A DNA stretch of 64,000 nt from Macrolepiota albuminosa (Eukaryota; Basidiomycota; Agaricomycetes; Agaricales; Agaricaceae), in NCBI GenBank assembly GCA_027475525.1, contig JAMWFC010000049.1, positions 6,370,947 to 6,434,946 on the forward strand, written 5' to 3'. The notes beneath the pieces are model-generated. The model saw only the letters and a list, made by a program, of their open reading frames with translations. It was not told the origin of the DNA and ran no database searches. Below, piece after piece: positions 42,033-64,000 of the stretch. Position numbers and translations under genes: made by a program. Every line of letters starts with the position of its first letter. Within the stretch, counting starts at the first letter, position 1.

Positions 42033-42290
42033 TCATGGCAATTCCAGATTGCTTGTGAAGGAGAAGGGTCTCATAGCTTTTGCACCAGCTAGCGCTCTGA
42101 GACCAAGTGAAGGAGTACAAGAATCAGCAAACGTCACCTCAGCAGACATCTCATCCAAGCATTCAATAGCAGAAACTTGGTAGCCCATCAATCCAATATC
42201 TTTGTCCTGGGACATCAACGGCGTCCTGAGAGTTCCAAGCCCAGCCTCTTCTGTCTGCTGACTGAGCAGAACCCACACCTGGAACAACGT
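42033..42290 (-). pseudogene. C-terminal exon of a host gene cut by element 2
   Basis: Open from a likely splice acceptor (target sequence CGTTGTTCCAG, minus strand) through LSQQTEEAGLGTLRTPLMSQ, GLMGYQVSAIECLDEMSAEV, LRALAGAKAMRPFSF to a stop at 42033. The composition is that of a real coding exon, but I do not recognise the family. Element 2 inserted a few bases upstream of the acceptor AG. A copy of its first 200 bp lies at 54367-54566. Confidence 0.45.
42091..42290. repeat. Left host flank, duplicated at 54367-54566
   Basis: This 200-bp host segment and 54367-54566 differ at one base by my reading, offset 12,276 bp. The copy at 54367 sits between a truncated LTR and a full LTR. Confidence 0.9.
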
Positions 42291-43333
42291 TGATAGGCTT
42301 CTACTCAGACTGAGCGCATCAAGGAACATTATAGGTTGACTGACACTTGACACACTGGAGACTCTAGCAACCAGCTTGGGGTACAGAGTAGCCCTAGTGC
42401 TGGCGCTCTATGGCAAGACTTATTCATTCATCTTAAACACCAGTATCAGCCCCTCAGCACACTTCACACATTTATTTTGAAGACCAAGGAGGCTTAGAAC
42501 TCATAGCGCTAGCACAATGGAGGGAAGTTGACTCTGACCAAACCCTGATTAATACCAAAAGGAGTTAGCAATTGGCGCTGTCAATCACTGAGGCACTTCA
42601 ATCAGAAGTCTAAAGGAATCGATGACAACGAGACAGGATACATGGAGACCTGACATTTAAATCTATCAAAAGATGGTACAATGTTAGCGCAGAGATTAGC
42701 GCTCACGGCGTCTGTTGAGGATTCTCCGACCATATCCAGGGATGGCATGGCCAATTAAATTACATCAAAAAGTGAGCAAAGTCGTATCATTTCTAAGTAG
42801 TTTTAGAGTTGCTGTTGGTCGCTGTCACCCATGTGCTGCAGGTCGCCGTTGACAGGTGGCTGTTAGCTACAACCACGAGGAGAGGCGCTAATTGTTAGCA
42901 CTGTCAATGGACTTATTTTGGAAATACCGTAGCGCATAGTATAAAAACTAGCTACTTGCCATGTATATAGCAACAAATCGTAACCTTTAAGGACCCAGTT
43001 ACACTTAGCATTCAAATCGTGCTAGCATTGCCTGACTTTGTCAATAAGTTTGGCGCTAGCTTTGTCTATCTTGTCCTCGTCGTTTACGGTGCCACCTACA
43101 GGCACACTATGCTGCGCTATTTGTTTTATTCTCTATAACTTCTCCTAAAACTACGACACTTACCACTTGCTAGGTAGCACCCGAGGTGCTATCATCTAGC
43201 GCATTGCCCTATCACCTCTGCTCGAGCACACCGGGACCCTGCTGGGACTCCTCACAAACCCGTACGCCAGGCGCTGGAGACGGCGTTGTACTGCGTATAT
43301 GTCCAGTGCACCCAACCACAGTTGACGTCATCA
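42291..43333 (+). repeat. 5' LTR of element 2
   Basis: 1043 bp, TGATAGG...GTCATCA. TATA box (AGTATAAAAAC) near 42936. The preceding 4 bp ACGT match those after 55609. Its first 360 bp are identical to the LTR at 54567; the rest differs at about 40 sites, all transitions. Confidence 0.93.
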
Positions 43334-43544: not shown

Positions 43545-45332
43545 CCGTTCGAATACTTAGCAGGTGAAAACCATACACCACTTACTCCTTTGGAAGAGCT
43601 GTCTAGGTCATTATCGCCAGAACCTAGCGACTCAGAATTACCCAAGCCAGTACCGACTACGACCATGCCAAGTGAAACTACCACTAACACCACTATTCCT
43701 ACCACGACGTCGATGCCAGCTAATATGGAGCAGGCAAACACACCACGCATGCTGCCAAGAAACCACTTCTCATCGCCAAAATGGGACAAGACGAAGCCTC
43801 GCGAGCTAACACAGTATTTCCGAGAATTGGAATATTTATTATGTGACTGCCGAGTCACCAACAACACACAAATGAAAGAATATGCCGCCAGATACGTTTC
43901 CTACAATACCGTGGAATCTTGGACAGGACTGGACGAGTTTCAAGAATTAACACAAGATGCGGTACCAAGACCGTTTACCTATGAGGAATGGAAAAAGGCA
44001 ATCATTAAACTTTACCCTGGCGCTGAAGAATCCACGCACTACACAGTCCTGGAAATCCAGAAACTGGTACAGGATACCTTTGCAACAGGCATTTATACGT
44101 TAGGCACGCTATCTACTTATTATTGAGATTTCCAGCAAATTGCATGATGGCTAGTACAGAATGGCAAACTCTACAGGAACGAGGAACGGTGCCTGTTCCA
44201 ACAAGGGATTCCGACATTGTTATGGACTCAAATAGCACGTTGTTTAGAAATTCTTAAGTCCGACCACCATCCCGAGGAACCCTACGATATAGAAGACGTC
44301 TTTGAAGCAGGTAAATGGATACTGAAAGGCACAGATACTGGCATCCCCTTCCAGCGACCCTCTAGTACTGATAACGGAGGAAAGGCGCCACCCATTGTGG
44401 CGCCAGTGCCTAGCGCGACTAACAACCAGGAAGGCTTTGTCAAGAAGGAGGATCTAGAAAACGCAGTCAACACGGCTGTCACAAACATTATGAGCAAATT
44501 GGAAACATTAATCTCGACTAGCCTTAACGCGCTATGAAGTAATATGCAACCTGGGCTTTGTCACTTCTGTGGCGAGGCGGGACATACAATGACTTGAGGA
44601 CGCTGCGCTATCCTCAAACAGTATCTACGCCAAGGAAGAGCACGTCAGGGTGCCGACGGTAAAATAATCCTACCCTCAGGTGCTAACATCCCTCTATATC
44701 CCGAGCACCGGACTTTCCAGGAACAAATTGATGAATGGCACCGACAAAACCCTGGGAACTTAGCGACAGGCAACTTCAATAGTACGGCTGCAACGGAGGC
44801 AGAGGCAACTCCACAACAGGCGCTAATCCATGAAGTACTCCAGCTTAACACTATTAGCAAGCGACCGACGTTGTCACAAGAGGAGAGGATCGAGACATTG
44901 GAAAGGGAGCTAAAGTCGCTAAAGAATCAGGTTTTTGACAGGGTCAAGATTAAAAAGAGCAAGCAACCATTGAAAGACTATAGACCCTCAGGCGCTACAT
45001 CAGATCCAGCACTAGCAAAGCCCTCAAATTCCAGCATCAACAACAATGCACCCGATATGGCCAAAGCATCAGCTAGCACGGAACCGCCACTGCACCCTTA
45101 TTCAGGGCTTGCTGGTAACTACTCTCCACCAGTCAATCAAAACTTTGGGGTGCCAGACAAGCCAGCAGGAGGCTACCGACCAACGGCACCTATCTACGAC
45201 ATAGAAAAATCGAAGCAAGTATTCGATCGCATCATGAAAAGTCAAGTTACGATGTCGGTAGGGGAGCTATGCAGTGTGGCACCTGACATCAGGAACCAGA
45301 TGCGTACCGCGGTTACCCTCGACAAAATGTAG
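43545..45332 (+). pseudogene. Gag of element 2
   Basis: One frame throughout, broken by several TGA codons (for example 44124-44126 and 44535-44537). Order: Ser/Thr/Pro-rich N-terminus, a capsid-like helical region (PRELTQYFRELEYLLCDCRV, then TYEEWKKAIIKLYPGAEEST), linker, zinc knuckle at 44559-44606 (CHFCGEAGH...GRC, a TGA inside), then a segment with DGKIILPSGANIPLYPEH and a coiled coil (ERIETLERELKSLKNQVF). It packages RNA into particles. No ATG is present before the open region, because the upstream border is itself a stop at 43542. Natural-looking end at TAG 45330-45332. Confidence 0.82.
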
Positions 45333-45343
45333 CTAACAATGTA

Positions 45344-46009
45344 ATGGCAGTGGACGAATGTGATGACGTGCTACCTGGATTTGCGTACATAACAGAGACG
45401 GTAGCGCCGGAAATCAAAGGAGAAGCCGAGCCACCCAAAGAAGCCACGTCCATTGACCCAGTTGAAATCTACCTCAAGTCACTAAGATCTAGCGACGATC
45501 CTGCCGTCCTCACTGTAGCACAAGACTCTCATGCGATATGCTCAATTATGTTGACAGTTGATGGAAAAAGCGAGATAGAGTCTATCGTGGACAGCAGATC
45601 ACAGATTATTTCAATAGCTGCCAATGTCGCTAATGAGCTTGGCATCATCTACAACCCCACCATCATTCTTAATATGCAGAGCGCTAACGGCACGATTGAT
45701 CGATCCCTGGAAATGGCCCGTAACGTCCCATGTGCTGTTGGCGATCTTACATTTTACCTACAAATTCACATTCTTAGATCGCCTGCATATGACTTATTAT
45801 TAGGAAGGCCCTTTGATGTATTAGCTCAATCAATAGTCAAGACAATGTCTGAAGATGAAACGATGCTAACTATTAGTGACCCTAACTCAGGTGTAAGAAG
45901 AACGGTACCGACGTTCCCTCGAGGGAAATTCCAAAAGCCAGGACCGAGAAAGCAACCTTATGTTAGCGACGACCCTTGCGGGTGTTTTCCGGTGCCATCG
46001 AGGAGATGA
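45344..46009 (+). pseudogene. Aspartic protease region of pol, element 2
   Basis: Reads IESIVDSRSQIISIAANVAN, LNMQSANGTIDRSLEMARNV, YDLLLGRPFDVLAQS, TVPTFPRGK. This is the retropepsin-like protease of the second gypsy family, with LLGRPF as the C-terminal block. The catalytic loop D-S-G/D-P-G reads DSR here, as expected from a G-to-A change (GGA to AGA), which would kill the enzyme. It follows the gag stop by a few codons in another frame. Only one protease domain is present, unlike element 1. Confidence 0.82.
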
Positions 46010-46860
46010 GTGATGAGGATCATGGAGATAAAGCGCTTATCTTGGACTATAACCATTGGACTGGGCAAGTAACCTTTATATCACATACCCCTTTAGCCCA
46101 CAAAATCTTGAATTCTTCCTCACTGCTTACTAGCAAAGCGTTATCCTACTTATACCTCACTGCGTCAGATATTACTGAAAACCTTTCAACAGACACTTAT
46201 TTTGTTTCTACTCCTGACTCTAAAAAACCTTTGATATCAGGTTTCGCTAGAAACCATGACTCTATTTATAATATGTTTGCTAACAATAGTACTCCTAAGC
46301 GCAAAGGGGTTCAGGTCAAGAAGAAATATAAGCCCGTAGTGCTTAAAACAAAACCGGTAGCGAGCACCGTACCTGAGGAATTTCGCATCAAATGAAAGAT
46401 AATAGGCAACCCTTTAGCTACCCTGCCAAAACTCGACCCAAATCCACCACCCTTTGAACCAACAGGACGATTTACAGAAGAACAAAAGGCGCTATTTCTT
46501 AGCGCCCACGATACCGGCTTTCTCTCAATGGCAAAAATGGACGTACTAGTCGACATCATGCAAAAACAGAACAAGGTGTTTGTCTGGGAAGACTCGGAGT
46601 GTGGTAAGCTCAGAACTGACTTCTTTCCACCTGTGGTTATACCGACAATACCACACGTACCCTAGACTGAGCATAACCGACCCATACCACTGGGCATTGA
46701 AGCTGAAGTCTGCCAAATTATTCGCTCTAAGATAGCGGCAGGCGTTTATGAGCCTTCCAATTCGGCCTACCGCTCAAGATGGTTTTGTGTACTAAAGAAA
46801 AACGGGAAGCTACGTATAGTCCACAGCCTAGAACCACTAAACAAGGTCACAATCAACTAG
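45976..46860 (+). pseudogene. Pol linker and RT N-terminal part, element 2
   Basis: The linker is open to 46395, then in the same frame after TGA reads PFEPTGRFTEEQKALFLSAH, MDVLVDIMQKQNKVFVWED, then RT fingers: IRSKIAAGVYEPSNSAYRSR, WFCVLKKNGKLRIVHSLEPL, NKVTIN. Here the match stops. The next conserved segment of this family lies far downstream in the normal protein, so the palm is missing. Confidence 0.8.
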
Positions 46861-46868
46861 TTAACTGA

Positions 46869-47789
46869 GTGCTCCAGCACATGAAGTATTGTGGCGGGAC
46901 ATTTTCAGGGCACAAGCTCATTCTTTGTGCACCACAGTTTAAGATTTTGGGGCACATTTGTACCCCAGAGGGCAGAATCCCAGAAGAGAGCCGATTAGCG
47001 CTTCTGGAGAAATGGGGGATCTGTCATAACCTCTCGGAAGTCCACGCATTCTTGGGCACTGTAGGGGTGCTGCGCATGTTCATACACCATTTCTCACATC
47101 GCGCAAATGCCCTTAATCGCTTAACTCGTTCAGGGGTCCCCTTCGAATTCGGACCTGACCAGATCAATGCCCAAAAGGACTTAGTGAAGGCACTACAGGA
47201 AGCGAAGCCCTTGGTACCCATTGACTATACCACTGCCGATCCTGTTATACTTGCCATTGACACATCATATATTGCAGTTGGCTTCTTCTTATGTCAGTGT
47301 GATGGCGAGAACCAAAAAGTCAGGCGCTACAATCACTTCAGATCGATTACCCTTAACGACAGAGAAGCGCGCTATAGTCAGCCCAAGCTAGAGTTATATG
47401 GCTTGTTTCGGTCGTTTCAAGCACTGCACATGTATCTTATTGGAGTTCAAAACCTTATTGTCAAAGTTGATGCTTGCTACATCAAAGGAATGCTCCAGAA
47501 TCCAGACATTCAACCTTCAGCTAGCATGAATCGCTGGGTAGTAGCAATACTGATGTTCCACTTTGAGCTTGTGCACGTTAAAAGTGCGTTTCACGGACCT
47601 GATGGACTATCTAGGCGACCTAGGCAGCCAGAAGATGAGGCGCTAGATGAAAGCGACAATGACGTATTCGATGACTGGATTGACTGGCTGCATGGTTTCG
47701 TGCATATTGTTCAATTACCCATTTCGGCCCTTTGCGAAGACCGACCTATCTCGACATACCTACACCCTATCATCCTGTATCAAACCTAA
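46869..47789 (+). pseudogene. RT thumb/connection and RNase H, element 2
   Basis: Open frame beginning VLQHMKYCGGTFSGHKLILC, then HICTPEGRIPEESRLAL, FLGTVGVLRMFIHHFSHRAN, and RNase H: VILAIDTSYIAVGFFLCQCD, REARYSQPKLELYGLFRSFQ, VKVDACYIKGMLQNPDIQPS, HGPDGLSRRPRQP. The catalytic xIDD box of RT, which should precede KYCGGTFSG by many residues, is absent, so about 100-150 residues have been deleted between 46857 and 46869. RNase H acidic residues are still visible. Confidence 0.85.
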
Positions 47790-48039
47790 ACTGTATCGGG
47801 CTCCATCAACTTTTTACATGGCCAGTATCTATAACGTCGCTAAGCCATCTAATGATCTAAAGATAGTCAAAGAACCCAGACCCTTACGGAAAGATAGTTG
47901 CAACCTCCCATATTTGGTGGTACCTCATAGCGCCAAGGCTAAGTCAGAAGACCAACAAGTTGATCAGGTTAGGAAGTGGCTACAGGATTTGTGCCGACCA
48001 TCAGACCTTACGGATGCGGAATACGCCACCTTTATTTGA

Positions 48040-49314
48040 TACGCAACGACTTTCTTTATGGTTGAGAATCGGCTTTGGCGACAAAATAGGGCTGGCGCTC
48101 ACAAATTGGTAATCAAACCAGAGGGCCACATTAGGATTCTGCGCACTATGCACGATGACTTGGGACATTGAGGACTCTATGCAATGCGGGCAAATTTATT
48201 GGAACGTTTTTGGTGGCCTCAAGTTAGCGCCAATATTGCATGGTACATTTGCACTTGTCATCTCTGCCAAATCCAGCAGACGTGCCAGGTGCTTATTCCC
48301 CCAACCGTAGCAACTCCAGCACCATTGTTCGGAAAGATATATATTGACACTATGCACATGCCCAAGTCAGGGCGCTACAAGTACATTATCCAGGGAAGGT
48401 GTTCTTTGGTACATTGGCCAGAGTTCCGTATGCTCCAGCAGGAAAATACTGACACTATAGCTAAGTGGCTCTTCGAAGATGTTATTTGCTGATGGGGGGC
48501 CCTTCACGAGATTGTTACAGACAACGGAGCATCTATAGTTAAGGCGCTTACCTACCTTGCAAAGAAATACAATATACAGCATATTTGAGTCTCAGGATAC
48601 AATAAATGCGCTAACGGCATAGTGGAAAGACCGCATTTTGATGTATGACAGGCGCTATTTAAGGCGGTAGACGGCAACGAGAGTCGCTGGAGTGAAGCAA
48701 CTTATTCAGTCTTTTGGTCTGAACGGGTTACCGTACGGAAGAGGATGGGTTGTTCTCCTTACTATGCGGCGACTGGCACCCATCCCCTGCTTCCAGTGGA
48801 CATTGTGGAGGCAACGTACTTACAACCCCCACCTAACTCAATCCTGTCTTCTACCAATCTGATTGCTAGGTGCACCATTGACTTACAACGACGCATGGAG
48901 GATCTAGAGCGCCTACACGAGGTGGTATTTCAAGCTAGACGACAGGCCGCATTACGATTTGAAAGCGAGCATAGCGCTACTATCCAAGACTACAACTTTA
49001 CAGCTGGCGCCTTAGTGCTAATGCGCAACTCGAAAATCGAAGTAACCCATAACAAAAAGATGCGACCTCGATACCTAGGGCCCCTCATAGTAGTTTCCTG
49101 CAATAGGGGAGGAGCCTACGTACTCTGCGAGTTGGACGGCTTGGTTTTGCATTGACCGGTAGCGGCATTTTGACTCATTCCCTACTTAGCATGTGAACAT
49201 ATTCCACTACCTTTGCCGGTGCTAGACATCGACACGGCTAAACTGCAAGAGCTAGAAGAGACCGAGTTGGTGGACGATGACGAGATCACTCCTGATGACG
49301 AAGAGGAACAGTAA
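48040..49314 (+). pseudogene. Integrase of element 2
   Basis: Zinc domain (HIRILRTMHDDLGH, then CTCHLCQIQQTC), then the DDE core: first Asp in KIYIDTMHMP, second in IVTDNGASIV, Glu in NGIVERPHFDV. Then SPYYAATGTHPLLPVDIVEA, a helical segment, and the GPY/F-like RPRYLGPLIVVS, with an acidic tail ending at TAA 49312-49314. Stops lie at several places (after GH, after DVIC, in HI*VSG, HFDV*Q, and in the tail). No chromodomain follows. Function: cDNA integration. Confidence 0.85.
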
Positions 49315-49452
49315 AAGACCATGAGAAACAAGGCACCGGCGGTTAGCGCTGCCTGCTACAGACTTAAAACATACAACAGCAACCACAAAGGGGCGAATAA
49401 ATAGATGATACTAATACAGACGGCACTACTAAACTATCTTTGACTACAAAAT

Positions 49453-51056
49453 TTAAGATAACAATGAAGACTGCCGACGAGGGCCCTTGACTTGCTCCTT
49501 GTGTCGCCTATAGGCAGGAGGAGCACCGGAAGGGGGATGTATTGCAGTGTTAGGCGGCATGGGAGGAGCAACTGGAGGAGGAGGCACGGGAAGAGCAATT
49601 GTAGGTAGAGTGCGGGAAGGACCCAGGGGAGCAGCGGAACGAGTAGGGGACAAGTACCACCTGGCCTCATCCATGCGATGCTCTAAAGCCATATAAGGAA
49701 TGGCCACACGGGCAAGCACAGCTCTACTAGCGCTAAGGTTAACAAGAACCGGAAGGGGGAGCCATGAGAGGCTCTAGAAAAGGGCAAGGAATTAGCTAAC
49801 TAAGGTCAGGAGAAAAGGAGTATAGGCACTAACCAAACTCCTGGTCTCATGGAGAAGGCTATAGAGACTCAAAGCGGTACCAGTAACGGGCTCCTACGAC
49901 ATGCATAAGTATTACCTAAAGCATGCGCTAATGAAAGGTTTACGGTGACTAGAGCAGGGTCTGTATTTATCTCCCATTTGTCGGAGGCCACTAGCAAAAG
50001 CTGGTACTGGTGCACAAGGGTCATTATGTTACTGTTCTCATGTGGAAAGCTGCCATCAGGCATTAGCATGAGAAAGCGCTCAAGGCGGTCTAGGATTAAT
50101 GGCCGGTGAACAAGTACGGGGTCATCAAGAAGGAGGGAAGGTTCTGGCATGGTATGATACTAACCAGGTTAACAGCGCCAGAACCCATAAAATACCTCAA
50201 GCTGCTTGCAGAGTCGCAGATACTTGGGAACTCTTACATGCGCAAAACAATCATGGGGGGGGACAACAGCAATGCATTTCATATAACTACGACAAAAGAA
50301 ATCAACTAGCCAAAGTCTGTCAGCCCGGTGGCGCCACGGAAAAGAAGGAGCCGACTTACATAAACGACATGGGAGATGGACAAGCACTAAGGACCGGGCA
50401 AAAGGAGAGGCCTGGGAGGCCGCTAGCCTTCAGCCGGACTGCGAAAAAGCTGGCCACCAGTAGACGAGCAGGGCGCCTAGCGAGGCAACACGTTAGAAGG
50501 AAGAAGACGGGGTAATAAGGCAACAAACCAGGTAGTGACTCTCCTCCAGCAGCAACTCAAGATGCTCCTTCGTTTCCTTGGTCGCAATTTGCTTTATTTG
50601 GCGACTATCAGAAGAAAAGGAGGGCAAAAAAGGCAATAGCGCACCTGGAAAATCTGACTCCAGTTCTTCTCCATACCAAAATGGGTCAACGGCAGGTCAT
50701 CGTGCCAAATCTCACAGGCCACACAAAGTAGCTGGCAGCGACGACCTAATTCAACGACTCTGTCGGTCAGTCCGGGCATGCCAACTGCTGGGTAGTGGTG
50801 AAAGAACGAGGTAGCGCGTTCCAGGAAAGTGGGGGGATCAATTACGAGATGAGCACGATCACAGCAGGGAGACCACACAATGCCAGTAGGGCTTTCCATC
50901 GCGAAGACTGATGACATCCCATCGTGGCATGGGCAATTTATAGGATTCAGGCAGTGTTTCAGCTAGCGACAGCATGAGAGAGCACTTCTCAAGAGGCTTG
51001 GGCCCTGATGCAGACACGAACCAATAAGATGCGCCTATCTCATTTTTAGGTCGCAC
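49453..51056 (-). pseudogene. Second antisense coding cluster in element 2
   Basis: Minus-strand blocks in order: about 51075-50859 (INFPFVRPKNEIGASYWFVS, PRWDVISLRDGKPYWHC), 50917-50594 (CCDRAHLVIDPPTFLERATS, then RRCQLLCVACEIWHDDLPLT), 50150-49869 (LVHRPLILDRLERFLMLMPD, then IMTLVHQYQLLLVASDKWEI) and 49719-49453 (MALEHRMDEARWYLSPTRSA, then Pro-rich). Composition and donor-like ends (FQ|GTGCGC) suggest a spliced gene. Cys/His clusters (HC, PCCD, H, then C.L.CVAC...H) may bind metal. One frame change lies near 50890. Family not recognised. It lies between pol and the first antisense gene, same strand as the latter. Confidence 0.5.
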
Positions 51057-51197
51057 AAAGGGGAAGTTAATCTTTGAGATCTAGCACTTATAGCCACCAT
51101 CACCGAATAATCATAAGCGATCAGTGGCACTCTATTTTTTATACATTAAAACTTCTTACATGAATCAACTTATCTTTTTACAGACAATACCTATTTC

Positions 51198-51273
51198 TTC
51201 CTAGGCTGGCGTGATATTGGCTATTGGGCCATGCTGGTAATAGGAGTTTTCTATGCCATGATGATTTACTGAG
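51198..51273 (+). other. Orphan transmembrane-like segment
   Basis: A sense-strand frame ends with GWRDIGYWAMLVIGVFYAMM and a stop, preceded by TDNTYFFL. It would be one membrane helix. The open stretch is about 40 codons with no ATG at its start. It may be a relic or chance. Confidence 0.2.
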
Positions 51274-51336
51274 CGTTTCCCTTTTTTTTTCTTACTTTAT
51301 ATTTTGATTACTTACAAACTGACAATTTTGGAACAA

Positions 51337-51349
51337 GGGGGGGAGCGTT
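51337..51349 (+). other. Second polypurine-tract-like run in element 2
   Basis: AACAAGGGGGGGAG resembles a polypurine tract but no LTR follows. It lies between the two antisense coding units. Confidence 0.3.
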
Positions 51350-51429
51350 TATTTTAATGTGGCTATCACACGACTACGTATCAAAAATTACAAAGTCCAA
51401 CAAAGTTCGAGGCACTATGGGGCCGGTGA

Positions 51430-53914
51430 CTACGGATCATACTCGGGAAGGGCAGGATCGCCCAAAGGAAGCAAGTCCCTGTCCTGAATTGCATTACTTG
51501 CTTGCCACTCAAGCGCATCGGTGATATTGTCATGGAGCTCGAGCAGGAGGCGCTCACGGCATGCTAAGGTGGAGACACGAGGACGCAGGTTAGCAAGTTC
51601 GCGACCAGTGATTTCGGTCGCATCCTCAATATAGAGAAGTTGCTGGCGAAGGTTGGCAGAAGGACGGAGGGGGGTAACAGGATAGGAGAACTCGTCCCCG
51701 AGCCAAGGGAAGGCGTCCAAAAGGGATCAAACTTACCGGGAAATCAGAAAAAGGGAGAAAAGAAGCTGATAAGGAAGGGGCATACCCGAACAGTTACAGG
51801 CACATGAGGTGTCCATTCATGACGCTCATCGCCGGAGGACATAGGTCTGGCGGAGGAGAGGTGGATGCTGTAGAAAGGCAGGTAACTCCAGCAGCGATGA
51901 CACTCACTCTACGGTACCAAAGTTCCTTCGGACTCTGGCGCCGTAGAAGTCTCACAACTCCTAGGAAAAGAGGAGAAGCTGTGGGGAGGAGTAAGGGACG
52001 GAGTAATAGAAAGGGCAACAGGGGGGTCACTAGCCACAACCGGCTCGGGAGCAGGGGTAGTGCTGGCGACAGACATAACGACATCTTTGGCAGGAGGAAT
52101 ATCCACTATGACGGGAACAGGAGTGGGGGACCTACCAGTCAAGGAGTTAGCACGAAAGAAAAAAAAGTTAAGAAAACATGTACTGGTTACCACTGGGGCC
52201 ACTCTGACGAGGGTTAGTGGCGATAGGGGGAGTAAGGCAAAGCAGGAGAGCGCGTACCGCCAACAGCACATCGGCATCAATGACAGGCTCAGCTTCATCA
52301 TCATCCTTTCCCTTGGCATCCCTCTCAGTGTCCTCTCCCTCATCCATAGACAACTCAGTCATAGACAAAACCACAGGCGTAGCAGGTGATAGCTCGCAGC
52401 GCTTACCAGGACCCTTGCCAGGAGACGCAACAACAGGTTTACGTTTCGAAGGAAAGGGGCGACAAGGAGAGCGAGCAAAGGGTGCTGCCATGGTGGTACC
52501 ATCCTGGGTAGTCGGCAGCGCCAGGCTGGCTGCGCTAATCACTGTGGGCTGGTGAGTAGCCGCCAGATCACGTTGCTGCAGCACAAAGTCCCAGGCATTA
52601 CAAACCAATACCATGCGCTCATAGTTCCTTTGCATGATGGGGTCCCTACCACGTTTACGAGTACAAATCCCATTGAAGGCGCAGCCTCGTTTCAACGCAT
52701 CGCACCGATAGCAAGGCAGAGAAGCGGTAGGAAACCAGCAGCCCTCAGGATCGTTCTTAGACCAACATTTGTCACACTAAGAAAGAAGTTAGCAATGTCA
52801 TCAACCTACCAAGGGGCAAACCAGTACTTACCGTGCCAATCTTTGCCCTAAATGCATGACGTTCCAAAGGCGTGACTGTAACCTTCTTCTTGGCGCCCAG
52901 TACTTGGACACCAGCCAGGATGCCGGTATCAATAATGGTAGTATCATGGCGAAGACACAACAGGTCACAAAGCTCCGCATCAGTGAACATGGTCTGATTA
53001 GGCACCTACCGACATTAAAACTTAGGCGCTAAAGTCTAGCAACGACGTGCAAAGCACTTACGACATACAAAGGGGCAACGTGAGCAGGGAGATTGATCTA
53101 GAAGGGGAGAAGTCAGAAAAATGGAATAAGGAAGGTAGGAGGAGGGATGCACAGTACGTTTGGGAGAACTAGCATGAGCAGGGGGCGCTCATTCAATAAC
53201 AATGGCAAAATTATGCGGAGGACCGTGGAAAGTTGGACGCGTCGGGCCGGTTTGTGGTTTGCTACAAGAAACAGCAATACATTTGATGGCCAAATGGGGA
53301 GGGGCAGTGCGAACGGAAGAAGCAGCACTTGGGGCAGGACAGGTGGAAGAAGCAGTGCCACAAAAAGGGCTGCCAAGAATGGAAGGAGGCGGAACAGAAG
53401 TCGAAGAAGGAGGGGCAGTAGGAACAGAAGGGACAGTGGAGGCTGATGGGGCAGTAGGAATACTGGCAATGGTGGGAGATGTAGCAACCGACTACCCAAG
53501 GTTAAAGAATTGGAAGTTGGGGGAAGAAAAGGAAGGACTTACTTCGCTGACCTCGGTACTAGCCAACAACGCGTCAATCTTGTCAGATAAGGAGGGCGCC
53601 TAGTATGGGCGCTGAACCTTAGTGCCACAAGCTCACAATCAAACTTAGAAACTTACAAAAAGGTCTGCAAAGGGGCGCAGCCAATCGGCACCTTTGTACT
53701 TGCGGTACCGAGCCATGCACCACTTACGAACCTCAATGCCCCGCGCCCAGGAACTGTCAGAGCCGCGGACTACGAGCCACCGCCAATAGATTTGCATAAT
53801 GCCAGGGATGGTTTGTGGCGCATTGGCGGGACCGACAGACTTAGCACGATCGAATAAATAGGAGGCCTTAGCCAGGAAATTGCGGAGAGCAGAAGCATCG
53901 AAAGGAGTGGACAT
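51430..53914 (-). pseudogene. Antisense multi-exon Cys-rich gene inside element 2
   Basis: Opposite to gag-pol. ATG at 53914, about 50 bp after a TATA box. Exons (minus): 53914-53657 (MSTPFDASALRNFLAKASYL..., 86 aa), 53599-53543 (APSLSDKIDALLASTEVSE), 53491 to about 53110 (Ser/Pro-rich; TGA at 53189-53191), 53097-53062 (INLPAHVAPLYV), 53005-52832 (58 aa, ends HAFRAKIGT), then from 52776. The last opens with C-X2-C-X8-C-X8-C-X2-C-X6-C (CDKCW...CYRC) followed by a basic KRGRD stretch. Introns are about 36-58 bp with GTAAGT donors; 52777-52831 is phase 0, directly before the first Cys codon. An acidic tail and a last block (51720-51430, RQQLLYIEDATEITGRELAN) follow, not fully resolved. Zinc binding is inferred. 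Confidence 0.75.
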
Positions 53915-53964
53915 GCTGGAAAGATGTGAAGGAAAACACAAGAAGGTGAAGTGCTAAAAATGAC

Positions 53965-53976
53965 TTTTATAAGGTG
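53965..53976 (-). promoter_or_regulatory. TATA box of the antisense gene in element 2
   Basis: On the minus strand CCTTATAAAAGTC lies about 50 bp upstream of the ATG at 53914 and about 85 bp inside the element from the 3' LTR. This is a consensus TATA box at a suitable distance for a short leader, so the gene seems to have its own promoter. Confidence 0.55.
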
Positions 53977-54050
53977 CCGCCGGCATTATACGGACCGTAG
54001 TGCAGTCAAATTAATGATGGCGTTTGACTGAGGACAGTCAATTTTTCAGT

Positions 54051-54060
54051 TGGGGGGAGA
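54051..54060 (+). promoter_or_regulatory. Polypurine tract of element 2
   Basis: TGGGGGGAGA directly precedes the 3' LTR start TGATAGG at 54061. Confidence 0.8.
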
Positions 54061-54366
54061 TGATAGGCTTCTACTTGGACTGAGCACATCAAGGAACATT
54101 ATAGGTTGACCGACACTTGACACACTGGAGACTCTAGCGACCAGCTTGAAGTACAGAGTAGCCCTAGTGCTGGCGCTCTATGGCAAGACTTATCCATTCA
54201 TCTTAAACACCAGTATCAGCTCCTTAGCACACTTCACACATATATTTCGAAGACCAAGGAGGCTTAGAACTCATAGCGCTAGCACAATGGAGGGAAGTTG
54301 ACTCTGACCAAACCCCGATTAATACCAAAAGGAGTTAGCAATTGGCGCTGTCAATCACTGAGGCAC
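54061..54366 (+). repeat. Truncated true 3' LTR of element 2
   Basis: Matches the first 306 bp of the 5' LTR with about 13 substitutions, then stops abruptly. The next base starts the copy of the left host flank. No microhomology at the join. Confidence 0.88.
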
Positions 54367-54566
54367 AGCGCTCTGAGACCAAGTGAAGGAGTACAAGAAT
54401 CAGCAAACGTCACCTCAGCAGACATCTCATCCAAGCATTCAATAGCAGAAACTTGGTAGCCCATCAATCCAATATCTTTGTCCTGGGACATCAACGGCGT
54501 CCTGAGAGTTCCAAGCCCAGCCTCTTCTGTCTGCCGACTGAGCAGAACCCACACCTGGAACAACGT
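54367..54566. repeat. Copy of the left host flank of element 2
   Basis: Repeats 42091-42290 with one difference. Ends in ACGT just before the next LTR, exactly as at the true left border. Confidence 0.9.
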
Positions 54567-55609
54567 TGATAGGCTTCTACTCAGACTGAGCGCATCAAGG
54601 AACATTATAGGTTGACTGACACTTGACACACTGGAGACTCTAGCAACCAGCTTGGGGTACAGAGTAGCCCTAGTGCTGGCGCTCTATGGCAAGACTTATT
54701 CATTCATCTTAAACACCAGTATCAGCCCCTCAGCACACTTCACACATTTATTTTGAAGACCAAGGAGGCTTAGAACTCATAGCGCTAGCACAATGGAGGG
54801 AAGTTGACTCTGACCAAACCCTGATTAATACCAAAAGGAGTTAGCAATTGGCGCTGTCAATCACTGAGGCACTTCAATCAGAAGTCTAAAGGAATCGATG
54901 ACAACGAGACAGGATACATGGAGACCCGACATTTAAATCTATCAAAAGATGGTACAATGTTAGCGCAGGGATTAGCGCTCACAGCGTCTGTCAAGGATTC
55001 TCCGACCATATCCAGGGATGGCATGGCCAATTAAATTACATCAAAAAGTGAGCAAAGTCGTATCATTTCTAAGTAGTTTTAGAGTCACTGTTGGTCGCTG
55101 TCACCCATGTGCTGCAGGTCGCCGTTGACAGGTGGCCATTAGCTACAACCACGAGGAGAGGCGCTAATTGTTAGCACCGTCAATGGACTTATTTTGGAAA
55201 TACCATAGTGCATAGTATAAAAACTAGCTACTTGCCATGTATATAGCAACGAATTGTAATCTTTAAGGACCCAGTTATACTTAGCGTTCAAATTGCGCTA
55301 GCATTGCCTGACTTTGTCAATAAGTTTGGCGCTAGCTTCGTCTATCTTGTCCTCGTTGTTTACGGTGCCACCTATGGGCACACTACGCTGTGCTATTCAT
55401 TTTATTCTCTATAACTTCTCCTAAAACTACGACGCTTACCACTTGCTAGGTAGCACCTGAGGCGCTATCATCTAGCGCATCGTCCTATCACCTCTGCTCG
55501 AGCACACTGGGACCCTGCCAGGACTCCTCACAAACCCGTACGCCAGGCACTGGAGACAGCGTTGTACTGCATATACGTCCAGCGCACCCAACCACAGTTG
55601 GCGTCATCA
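54567..55609 (+). repeat. Complete LTR (recombinant solo LTR) at the right border
   Basis: 1043 bp, TGATAGG...GTCATCA, followed by ACGT (55610-55613). The first 360 bp are identical to the 5' LTR. From 54927 on it differs at about 40 sites, all transitions. It thus reads as 5'-LTR sequence joined to 3'-LTR sequence, the product expected from LTR-LTR recombination. Confidence 0.88.
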
Positions 55610-55613
55610 ACGT

Positions 55614-56990
55614 GTATACGAGAGAAGGGTAAATTTTCAGGAGTTCACTTTACAGGAGGACCTTCCAAGAACCAGAAAAATGAAGGAAATGGATTTTGGA
55701 GCACTGACTAATGCTTGGGACATCTGCACCGTCCTAACTGCACTAAGTAAGTTGGTCAAACGTTTTTATTGGTACTCTACTCATATCGCTGAATTAATTT
55801 CAGTCTCACTATGATGAGTTCAATGTCAATGCTGACTTTTTGTAGCCTCCGTTGTGTCTCGCTCCTCATCAAGCACCTTCAAAGCCTTGGCCAACGGTCA
55901 ACAAAGCTACCATAGCAGGAAGGATGGTTTCAGAGGTTAGGGTAGGTAGGTAACTTGCATAGTGAGTAATGATATTTTTTTGGCCTTCCTTATGTTGATA
56001 TTACCCTTGCCGTTGCTCTGACACCTTATATCAGGTATCTGCCCCCATCTCTGCCCCCACACATTTTCCAACCCTCAGCCAGCCATCTAACAATTAGAAT
56101 GACCCTCCTGTGCTGCCATGTCATCATGCAGCTCCGCTCCCAATGATTTTGGCGGCATGGAGAACCTCTACGCTACGTAAGTGAATTTTTTTATTTACTT
56201 GTATACTACTGGAAGGCTTTCTGATTACTCCAATATTTCTAGGGCCTTGGGTTGCCCATCGATGCCATGACTTGGACGTTACTCTATAGTGCCACTTTGT
56301 TCTGCACCCTCTGTCAATTAGGTGCTTGAAATCACTCTGACGGTGCATAGGACAGCGTCAAATATACCGCCCACCTCTAAAATCCAAACCTTCTTCCTTC
56401 TCATATGTGACCCATTCGACTTGAAATTGTTCATCAAGGCTGATAATAATTCTGTTTTTTTCATCTTTGCTTTCATGTTCTCTGTGATTTCCACAAGAAA
56501 CAGTGACAATAAACCACAGTCCGCTCACCACAAGTTGACACCTGCTAATACTGATGTAATCTCAGGTTCTGGAAGACCAAAGTTGAGATAACTAACATAT
56601 GTATACAGACTCGCCACATCTTTGATGATAAATCCAATCTATTGCCAAGTTCTTTTGCAGGTATCTAGTACTGATTCTCACTTATTCATTGTTGGACAAT
56701 TGTGCATCATCAAGATGGTGCTGTTGCATACCGGGCTGCCTTCCCACTTGCATCGGTTCAGCAATTACGAGTGGCCATGAGTGGATGAATTTCAACAACT
56801 GACAGAAAACAGAAGGCAAGGTCAACCGTGATTGACAGATAGAAACAAGTCATCTACTGTCAACAATGTGCCAGGAAAGGAGGAGGAGGGTCAAGAGGAT
56901 GCAACTAGGTGAGGATAAACCAGAGGAAGAAGTGTTAAATGACGAGGCCAATGAGAGGCAGAAAAAGGAAGGCAGAGGAGGATGTGTGGT
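55614..56990. other. Host-like DNA right of element 2
   Basis: CpG-poor. Upstream exons of the gene cut by element 2 may lie here on the minus strand; a candidate is about 55660-55735. Nothing recognisable. Confidence 0.3.
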
Positions 56991-61425: not shown

Positions 61426-64000
61426 ACGTGCGAGTGTTGTCACGGTGATTTTTGTGATGTCTGAGGGTGTTTGTGATGGGAAAGGGGTGTGTGATGAGTG
61501 ACGTGACTGTAGACCGCTTGTAACGGTTGAAAAGTGTTGGTTTTGTTAGAAATGTAAGTATTGTGATTATTAAGTTGGTATTGCGATTGATTGTTGAGTT
61601 GTATTGGTGATTGTTGAGTTGTATTGGTGTTTATGAGTGTTGATTGGTGATTGTTGAGTTGTATTGGTGTTTATGAGTGTTGATTGGTGATTGTTGAGTT
61701 GTATTGGTGATTGTTGAGTTGTATTGATGTTTACGAGTGTTGAGTTGAGTTGTATTGATGTTTACGAGTGTTGAGTTGAGTTGTATTGGTGTTTACGAGT
61801 GTTGAGTTGAGTTGTATTGGTGTTTACGAGTGTTGAGTTGAGTTGTATTGGTGTTTACGAGTGTTGAATTGAGTTGTATTGGTGTTTACGAGTGTTGAGT
61901 TGAGTTGTATTGGTGATTGTTGAGTTGTATTGATGTTTACGAGTGTTGAGTTGAGTTGTATTGGTGTTTACGAGTGTTGAATTGAGTTGTATTAGTGTTT
62001 ACGAGTGTTGATTGGTGATTGTTGAGTTGTATTGGTGTTTACGAGTATTGAATTGAGTTGTATTGGTGTTTACGAGTGTTAGTTGAGTTGTATTGGTGTT
62101 TACAAGTGTTAGTTGAGTTGTATTGGTGTTTACAAGTGTTGAATTGAGTTGTATTGGTGTTTACGAGTGTTGAGTTGAGTTGTATTGGTGTTTACGAGTG
62201 TTGAATTGAGTTGTATTGGTGTTTACGAGTGTTGAGTTGAGTTGTATTGGTGATTGTTGAGTTGTATTGATGTTTACGAGTGTTGAGTTGAGTTGTATTG
62301 GTGTTTACGAGTGTTGAATTGAGTTGTATTAGTGTTTACGAGTGTTGATTGGTGATTGTTGAGTTGTATTGGTGTTTACGAGTATTGAATTGAGTTGTAT
62401 TGGTGTTTACGAGTGTTAGTTGAGTTGTATTGGTGTTTACAAGTGTTGAATTGAGTTGTATTGGTGTTTACAAGTGTTGAGTTGAGTTGTATTGGTGTTT
62501 ACGAGTGTTGAATTGAGTTGTATTGGTGTTTACGAGTGTTGAGTTGAGTTGTATTGGTGATTGTTGAGTTGTATTGATGTTTACGAGTGTTGAGTTGAGT
62601 TGTATTGGTGTTTACGAGTGTTGAATTGAGTTGTATTAGTGTTTACGAGTGTTGATTGGTGATTGTTGAGTTGTATTGGTGTTTACGAGTGTTGAGTTGA
62701 GTTGTATTGGTGATTGTTGAGTTGTATTGATGTTTACGAGTGTTGAGTTGAGTTGTATTGGTGTTTACGAGTGTTGAATTGAGTTGTATTAGTGTTTACG
62801 AGTGTTGATTGGTGATTGTTGAGTTGTATTGGTGTTTACGAGTATTGAATTGAGTTGTATTGGTGTTTACGAGTGTTAGTTGAGTTGTATTGGTGTTTAC
62901 AAGTGTTGAATTGAGTTGTATTGGTGTTTACAAGTGTTGAGTTGAGTTGTATTGGTGTTTACGAGTGTTGAATTGAGTTGTATTGGTGTTTACGAGTGTT
63001 GAGTTGAGTTGTATTGGTGATTGTTGAGTTGTATTGATGTTTACGAGTGTTGAGTTGAGTTGTATTGGTGTTTACGAGTGTTGAATTGAGTTGTATTAGT
63101 GTTTACGAGTGTTGATTGGTGATTGTTGAGTTGTATTGGTGTTTACGAGTATTGAATTGAGTTGTATTGGTGTTTACGAGTGTTAGTTGAGTTGTATTGG
63201 TGTTTACGAGTGTTGAATTGAGTTGTATTGGTGATTGTTGAGTTGTATTGATGTTTACGAGTGTTGAGTTGAGTTGTATTGGTGTTTGTTGAGTTGTATT
63301 GGTGTTTGTGAGTATTGGCATGTGTGGATATGTGATTGTTTGGCAAAAGCAAGTTGGTGTGACATGGGTGTGGTCAGTGTGTGACGGGCTTTGAGTTGAT
63401 TTGAAAGGAAACGTTATTAAGTGTTGTATAAGTGTTTATTGCGATTATCAAGTGTTGTACGTGATTATTGAAGGTGTGACAGTGTTTGTAAGTGTTTTTG
63501 TGCATTAGACGAGTCAGTGTGACACGGTTGCAATCAGTTTGTGACAGGATTTGAATTGATTTGGATGGAAACGTCAACAAGGGTTAGATAAGTATTCATT
63601 GCGATTATTAGAGTTGGAATGGTATTTGCGAGTGTTGGTATGCATTATTTTGCGATTTTTGGTTAGAATCGAGTGTGTGTGACATGGTCAAGACTGGTTT
63701 GTGACAGGATTTGATGGGAAATATTTCAAATGGTTAGTGGGCATGGTTAGAAGGTTAATTATTTAGACCAGGAATGTTTTTGAAGTCGTGGGAGTACCCC
63801 GGTATTAAAATGGGCTGTTTGAGTGTGGGAATTGATGGGGGGAGTGCGGGCAGTGTAATAGAAGGGGTGTGTAGAAGAAAAATTGATGGTTTGATGATGG
63901 GAAAAGCGGGAAAATTAAGGTTGAGTGCAGGGGTGTTTATGTTGATTATTGTGACGTGCGAGTGTTGTCACGGTGATTTTTGTGATGTCTGAGGGTGTTT
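61426..64000. repeat. Large tandem repeat, period 2,528 bp
   Basis: The first 47 bases after the gap (61426-61472) recur exactly at 63954-64000, the window end. The unit holds the minisatellite plus about 780 bp of GT-rich DNA with no gene, including a segment with two related halves (63355-63480 and 63480-63620). More units probably lie in the gap and beyond the window. Confidence 0.7.
61560..63310. repeat. 31-bp-unit minisatellite
   Basis: About 55 copies of a GT-rich unit (GTGTTTACGAGTGTTGAGTT followed by GAGTTGTATTG) with common variants (ttgaattg, ttagttg, tattg, a shorter gattgttgagttgtattg unit). Variants recur in the same order at about 62000, 62343, 62808 and 63113, so there is a higher-order structure of several hundred bp. 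Frames rich in NTTQ on the minus strand are artefacts. Confidence 0.95.

Follow-up and report, generated by a model that had tools for sequence, protein, structure and literature searches.

A conserved, intron-containing antisense gene in Ty3/gypsy retrotransposons of the agaric Macrolepiota albuminosa

Introduction

Can an LTR retrotransposon carry a protein-coding gene with introns on the strand opposite to its own genomic RNA, and what would such a gene do for the element? The question is raised by a stretch of 64,000 nt of the M. albuminosa genome (contig JAMWFC010000049.1, positions 6,370,947 to 6,434,946; hereafter the window), in which a spliced minus-strand gene with a six-cysteine motif had been predicted between pol and the 3' LTR of one element (element 2). 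Antisense accessory genes of LTR elements are already known from plants and some retroviruses. Plant elements of the Tat lineage carry antisense ORFs (aORFs), including those of the Retand TRP28 proteins, maize Grande gene23 and rice RIRE2 (PMC7264820, PMC11963269), and the available text of one of these sources describes the function of the plant antisense ORFs as unresolved (PMC7264820). In the literature covered, mostly outside subscription papers, no conserved antisense protein gene is described for a fungal LTR element.

Results

The carrier element

Element 2 is a Ty3/gypsy LTR retrotransposon that reads, on the plus strand, from a 5' LTR through pol remnants and a polypurine tract to a 3' LTR:

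42291..43333, plus strand: 5' LTR, 1043 nt
45287..49155, plus strand: pol remnants, from Pfam matches and the ORF list
45287-46009, plus strand: protease-like part of pol
46869-47789, plus strand: RNase H part of pol
48172-48492, plus strand: integrase zinc-binding domain
49155, plus strand: end of the last pol ORF
54050..54060, plus strand: polypurine tract TTGGGGGGAGA, immediately 5' of the 3' LTR
54061..54366, plus strand: initial 306 nt of the 3' LTR; next come a 200-nt flank-like repeat and then a full LTR
54567..55609, plus strand: full 3'-end LTR, 1043 nt, TG...CA

The pol remnants matched PF17917 (E 8e-12) and PF17921 (E 2e-7) in Pfam, and the protease matches, PF13975 and PF13650, fell below the cut-off (E 1e-4 and 2e-4). 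No chromodomain, the mark of chromoviruses, was found at E<=1 in the pol tail of one copy (L054), where integrase H2C2 was present and SH3_Tf2-1 matched weakly (E 0.06). Rfam gave no family in 49000-55700 at gathering scores. Comparison of 54061-54872 with 42091-42596 revealed a partial LTR, then 200 nt that match the 5' flank exactly, then a full LTR, and this doubled 3' end is the product of recombination or of an assembly join. At 61563-63272 the window contains a large minisatellite whose units measure about 31 nt (TTGAGTTGTATTGGTGTTTACGAGTG...).

Gene A has eight exons on the minus strand

The predicted gene, termed gene A, is organized as follows in the window:

51430..53914, minus strand: gene A, antisense gene of eight exons; decayed copy
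53914, minus strand: ATG
53657..53914, minus strand: exon 1, conserved N-terminal domain (dN/dS 0.18)
53543..53599, minus strand: exon 2
53153..53491, minus strand: exon 3, Pro/Ser/Ala-rich linker, with the first in-frame stop (codon 206)
53062..53097, minus strand: exon 4, 12 codons
52832..53005, minus strand: exon 5
52184..52776, minus strand: exon 6, with the six-cysteine cluster, the segment next to it, and basic and acidic stretches
52681..52776, minus strand: C-X2-C-X8-C-X8-C-X2-C-X6-C cluster of exon 6, the most constrained part (dN/dS 0.03)
51786..52131, minus strand: exon 7, with the second in-frame stop (codon 561)
51430..51731, minus strand: exon 8, conserved C-terminal region ending in LPLGDPALPEYDP-stop; 31-nt deletion

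The original prediction of at least six minus-strand exons thus stands, with the number now fixed at eight; the seven introns between them are short and canonical (GT-AG), as had been expected, and the six cysteines lie in exon 6 with exactly the claimed spacing. The window copy itself is a pseudogene, given its two in-frame stops (numbered on the reference copy L024) and the 31-nt deletion in exon 8, and it still retains all seven GT..AG pairs. The gene model was taken from single natural copies, and in L024 it comprises eight exons, seven GT-AG introns of 52-58 nt and 712 aa. Exon chaining in L024 scored 2022, compared with 1070 on average and at most 1400 for 29 dinucleotide shuffles and 1566 for the opposite strand; the best chain carries one intron more than the final model. 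Exon chaining was rejected as proof on its own, because in decayed copies, too, the algorithm produces long models that are false. What decides the matter is conservation, namely shared splice sites and purifying selection on the frame and strand of gene A, which makes a real, selected, intron-containing antisense gene nearly certain.

Splice sites and reading frame are shared among genomic copies

The genome assembly (100.1 Mb, 129 contigs) was searched at the DNA level with 51430-53914 (best 40 of 386 candidates scored, the window copy included) and at the protein level with exon 6 (best 150 of 858 candidates scored), so that the resulting copy numbers are lower bounds. When 46 copies, the window copy and 45 others, were compared with L024, all seven GT..AG pairs were kept in 35, and 15 of the 46 were intact in that they also lacked stops and frame-breaking indels, a test that lets through insertions in multiples of three. 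Five of the intact copies (L033, L036, L039, L042 and L044) contain a tandem duplication, leaving 10 clean ones; the window copy is not among the 15. Tandem duplications, mostly of about 70-80 nt and in varied places, were seen in L032, L033, L036, L037, L039, L041-L045, L047, L055 and L056. Their pattern resembles contig ends with a fixed k-mer overlap that were joined unmerged, and they are probably an assembly artefact that falsely breaks frames.

Purifying selection acts on the protein

A check for purifying selection across copies, a lack of which was to have counted against the frame, did not refute it: dN/dS of gene A was 0.12-0.28 in all 13 pairs listed (for example 0.12 for L024-L052 and 0.14 for L024-L048), and the +1 and +2 frames gave 0.77-3.27. 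Seven of the listed pairs set a copy of the old subfamily against one from outside it; these gave 0.12-0.17, against 1.15-2.02 in the shifted frames, and across 102 young-old pairs the means were 0.111 for dN, 0.774 for dS and 0.143 for the ratio.

It could be supposed that the plus strand is the coding one, through the mirror frame, or that CpG decay mimics selection. Plus-strand ORFs of 152-179 aa do overlap gene A, and the mirror frame has a dN/dS of only 0.18-0.43; this value nevertheless exceeds that of the gene frame in every pair, the gene frame being the lowest of all six in 13 of 13, and the splice sites, TATA box and ATG suit the minus strand in most copies. Since CpG decay is evident in the copies, a permutation test was applied in which each substitution was moved to random sites with the same trinucleotide context. 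The observed N/S was 0.28-0.52 of that expected (0.49 against 1.75+-0.17 for L024-L052), and simulations as low as the observation numbered 0 of 500 in 12 of the 13 pairs and 9 of 500 in L024-L044, which argues against CpG decay. An artefact of either kind is therefore extremely improbable.

Along the protein, dN/dS was lowest in the cysteine cluster (0.03) and highest in the proline-rich linker (0.30), with six other parts at 0.11-0.18. When codon changes were sorted by the number of copies sharing them, leaving out codons more than one base off the majority, N/S was 0.48 for changes present in at least five copies, 1.23 for two to four copies and 1.35 for singletons, indicating selection in the spreading lineages and decay in single copies. 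Codons without a common form between the 6 old and the 40 other copies comprised 88 synonymous and 43 nonsynonymous differences. The NG86 estimate of dS may be inflated, for instance by CpG decay, because intron divergence between the subfamilies (0.30) is below that at synonymous sites (0.77) and dS is uneven along the protein, lowest for the N-terminal domain (0.41) and highest for the cysteine cluster (1.47). Third positions rich in CpG, along with introns that are short and under constraint, are suspected behind these oddities, and the permutation test is the safer figure.

Homologues in a second family and in Termitomyces

The protein search that had been suggested succeeded with region-limited queries and failed with the full-length one, which gave no match at E<=0.01 among 7993 scored candidates, probably because it was swamped by low-complexity words. 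The region-limited searches gave one match each, P0001 (5 candidates; E 7e-26) and P0002 (815 candidates; E 1.6e-39), both annotated as hypothetical proteins of Termitomyces, a genus in the Lyophyllaceae and the only outside source of matches. A scan of IMG/VR returned 6 pattern matches, of which 0 were confirmed. With P0002 as query, 147 matches in the M. albuminosa genome were obtained from the best 89 of 1865 candidates; in this list the family of gene A (family 1) stood at about 53-54% in the cysteine exon and other families reached up to 63%.

One diverged Ty3/gypsy family (family 2) was sampled at four loci, L059-L062. In all four a gene A homologue was found some 0.3-0.4 kb from the stop of pol, on the strand opposite to the reverse-transcriptase and integrase frames. 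Its exons are an N-terminal one, one containing LWTELSPRSKQEV or LWSDLSPHSKQEV, and a cysteine exon, and the last exon is a single frame of 387 aa in three loci and two frames in L061. The homologue can be aligned to gene A from the N- to the C-terminus, with introns 6 and 7 absent. Identity between the families is 28/43 in the cysteine segment, followed by 15/40 and 21/60, and the cysteine spacing is identical in family 1, family 2 and the Termitomyces proteins. Within family 2, dN/dS was 0.01-0.14 overall (11 of 12 estimates defined), with 0.01-0.06 for the N-terminal exon (6/6 pairs) and 0.06-0.14 for the cysteine exon (5/6 pairs, one being saturated). A family-2-type element start with its own gene A first exon is nested in a family-1 element at L057:684-2801.

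Gene A is linked to pol and inherited with its introns

Linkage was assessed from 40 scored RNase H matches. An exon 6 match lay 4.4-5.8 kb downstream in 24 of them, and gene A was antisense to pol in all 24 paired loci (parts 3-8 kb apart). For three further RNase H matches the distance to exon 6 was different, and in one of these cases the two lay on the same strand. The remaining 13 had no partner within 20 kb among the 150 scored exon 6 candidates; by eye, three of these 13 (C63, C115 and C65:1220544) pair with matches of the P0002 query on the opposite strand. In copies reaching that far, a polypurine tract and the start of an LTR follow beyond gene A.

These observations uphold the view that the gene survives retrotransposition with its introns: the intron positions are kept in 35/46 copies, and the antisense arrangement holds in 24/24 loci of family 1 and 4/4 of family 2. 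Common introns together with antisense linkage imply inheritance through the sense genomic RNA, introns included. Because the introns are oriented opposite to that RNA they would survive each round, and only a dedicated antisense Pol II transcript could yield the protein. That gene A has its own Pol II transcript is thus a sound inference from the sequence, backed by a strongly conserved TATA promoter.

The intron-rich, promoter-bearing and host-like structure, and the annotation of the Termitomyces relatives as ordinary hypothetical proteins, would also suit a captured host gene carried as cargo, which would benefit or manipulate the host, or keep rival elements out. Such an origin is unlikely in view of the high copy number, the position antisense to pol in 28 orientation-checked loci, and the absence of a single-copy host gene among the best-scored candidates.

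A conserved antisense promoter precedes gene A

The following signals flank gene A:

53964..53972, minus strand: TATA box TTATAAAAG, 51-57 nt upstream of the ATG
53989..53999, minus strand: inverted repeat TACGGTCCGTA (CGG-N-CCG), 5' of the TATA box; candidate binding site
51345..51357, minus strand: AATAAA-containing segment, about 80 nt past the stop

The TATA box had been placed about 50 bp before the ATG, in agreement with the distance found, and both TATA box and ATG occur in those copies that span them; the AATAAA is present in most covering copies. The gap from the ATG to the 3' LTR is 146 nt. Divergence between subfamilies is 0.086 in the 140 nt upstream of the ATG versus 0.30 in the introns, a conservation that may partly be owed to the adjoining polypurine tract. 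CAGTCAA occurs three times (two forward, one inverted) at 54003-54041, between the gene A promoter and the polypurine tract, and these repeats are well conserved among aligned copies. The CGG-N-CCG sequence is absent from both window LTRs, and an operator common to the LTR and the gene A promoter is accordingly not supported.

The strongly conserved antisense promoter block and the convergent layout with pol could also reflect an antisense transcript that acts by itself, through transcription interference or through dsRNA that limits copy number, with the protein unimportant. RNA control by antisense transcripts has been discussed for other elements, and fungal transposon-derived antisense lncRNAs have been studied, according to the available parts of PMC7264820 and PMC10648671, respectively. 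As the sole explanation this is very unlikely, since selection acts at the amino-acid level (dN/dS 0.12-0.28, strongest at the cysteines) and a protein with the same cysteine spacing is kept in the second family and in Termitomyces. RNA control could exist in addition to the gene A protein.

Two further antisense genes lie between pol and gene A

Gene A is not a lone antisense gene: two more genes, B and C, seen in the window and in copies L054-L058, lie on the minus strand between it and pol:

50390..50899, minus strand: gene B, ATG at 50899; 3' end approximate, from copy L054
50645-50899, minus strand: gene B exon 1
50936-50942, minus strand: gene B TATA
49453..50150, minus strand: gene C, ATG at 50150, stop near 49453

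The exon boundaries of both are known with less certainty than those of gene A. For gene B exon 1, dN/dS was 0.08-0.35 in the 9 of 10 pairs with an estimate among five copies, L056 being excluded for a tandem duplication. For gene C, where the pattern caught three copies, it was 0.19 over 59 codons (L054 vs L055), and a later stretch of 34-40 codons gave 0.18-0.73 in ten pairs, the two top values involving the window copy. Both genes are thus under purifying selection, and a relationship between the two was detected (hhalign probability 86.5). Homology of the gene A N-terminal domain to either was not supported (1.7 for B, 0.1 for C), and the peptides of B and C had no Pfam match at E<=1, PF04195 included. 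The gene A exons of the window copy are 88% identical to the young copy L024, and in the B/C region (49100-51450) its identity is 88% with the old-type L056 and 60% with L055, which represents the L024 locus; from these unequal identities the elements look mosaic.

The protein resembles zinc-cluster regulators in outline

Pfam gave no match at E<=10 for the gene A protein, its cluster segment, P0001 or P0002, and a GAL4 control matched PF00172 at 48.2 bits, so gene A does not encode a recognisable Zn(2)-Cys(6) protein. NCBIfam contained no family for it. Sequence searches of PDB gave one chain at E 1.4 (phmmer) and none with a profile, nothing convincing, and AlphaFold models of exon 6 (197 aa) and P0002 were of low confidence (mean pLDDT 44 and 41). 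Like the Gal4-type regulators of PF00172, gene A has six cysteines in two CxxC halves and a basic KRKP...GKRR stretch, and also an acidic stretch. In Zn(2)-Cys(6) proteins the loop after the first CxxC usually has six residues, whereas in gene A it has eight.

By position, gene A is closest to the antisense ORFs of Grande, RIRE2 and Retand and to HTLV-1 HBZ; the tests made here showed no homology to the plant aORFs or to HBZ. Like the plant Tat aORFs, it lies antisense between pol and the 3' LTR of a Ty3/gypsy element; unlike them, it has no TRP28/PF04195 match, resides in a fungus and encodes a six-cysteine cluster. Its element carries seven introns in gene A and up to three antisense genes, and introns go unmentioned in the accessible text of PMC7264820 and PMC11963269. 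The same sources describe gene23 of Grande as having its own promoter and a nuclear product, with a regulatory role proposed (PMC7264820, PMC11963269). For HBZ, antisense transcription from the proviral 3' end, a TATA-less promoter inside the 3' LTR, a spliced form and a nuclear product have been described (PMC10186651). Gene A is likewise antisense and would be read from the 3' end of its element, and differs in having a TATA promoter between gene and LTR. HBZ is a bZIP protein, and gene A has no Pfam match of that kind. Bdelloid rotifer LTR elements of several families have a captured ORF3, likewise an extra ORF after pol; the rotifer ORFs encode other protein types, and antisense spliced genes are not described in the text available (PMC5408684).

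Env-like genes occupy this very position between pol and the 3' LTR, cysteine clusters are able to bind RNA, and no domain is recognised in the protein, all of which would allow an accessory with a structural or replicative role (as an env-like, particle or RNA-binding protein) in place of a nuclear regulator. Such a role is not very likely, on grounds that are all indirect: env-like ORFs are in sense orientation in the plant review, as far as its available text goes (PMC7264820), separate antisense expression fits a regulator better than a particle protein, and the basic and acidic stretches look nuclear. For the function, the original prediction had suggested transcriptional regulation, chromatin targeting or antisense control of the element as possibilities. 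Read from its anatomy, gene A is best taken as encoding a nuclear, nucleic-acid-binding regulator that would be expressed independently of gag-pol.

Discussion

The explanation favoured here, which is moderately probable as a whole, is that gene A is a protein-coding accessory gene of a fungal Ty3/gypsy group and encodes a nuclear, zinc-cluster-like regulator. Its transcription, antisense to gag-pol, would start from a dedicated TATA promoter within the 146 nt that separate the ATG from the LTR; the transcript would end before pol, and the seven short introns would be spliced out. The predicted protein combines a conserved domain at the N-terminus and a conserved region at the C-terminus with the six-cysteine zinc-cluster-like module and the basic and acidic stretches. 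It would most likely enter the nucleus and bind DNA, first of all in the promoter and LTR region of the element. Bound there, it may set the transcription or silencing state of the element in the manner of HTLV-1 HBZ or of the Grande and Retand antisense ORFs. On the sequence evidence gene A likely regulates its element, and such elements probably encode their own regulator, as the gene is preserved across copies and in a distant second family.

A wider proposal, plausible and put forward tentatively, is that of an antisense regulatory cassette of as many as three genes (A, B and C), each with introns and a start of its own, in which gene A founds a new six-cysteine DNA-binding family that has controlled elements since before the split of the two families and the Termitomyces copies. 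If this were true, the retrotransposon would have a second, opposite-strand part devoted to regulation.

The case adds to the known antisense accessory genes a fungal one with strong evidence of selection at the protein level and at least ten visibly undamaged copies among 46. The finding also suggests that some 'hypothetical proteins' of agarics may be antisense retrotransposon genes. The introns provide a built-in reporter, in that a spliced minus-strand read is possible only from gene A, and the old question of whether retrotransposons use their opposite strand to encode nuclear regulators of their own has thereby become directly testable.
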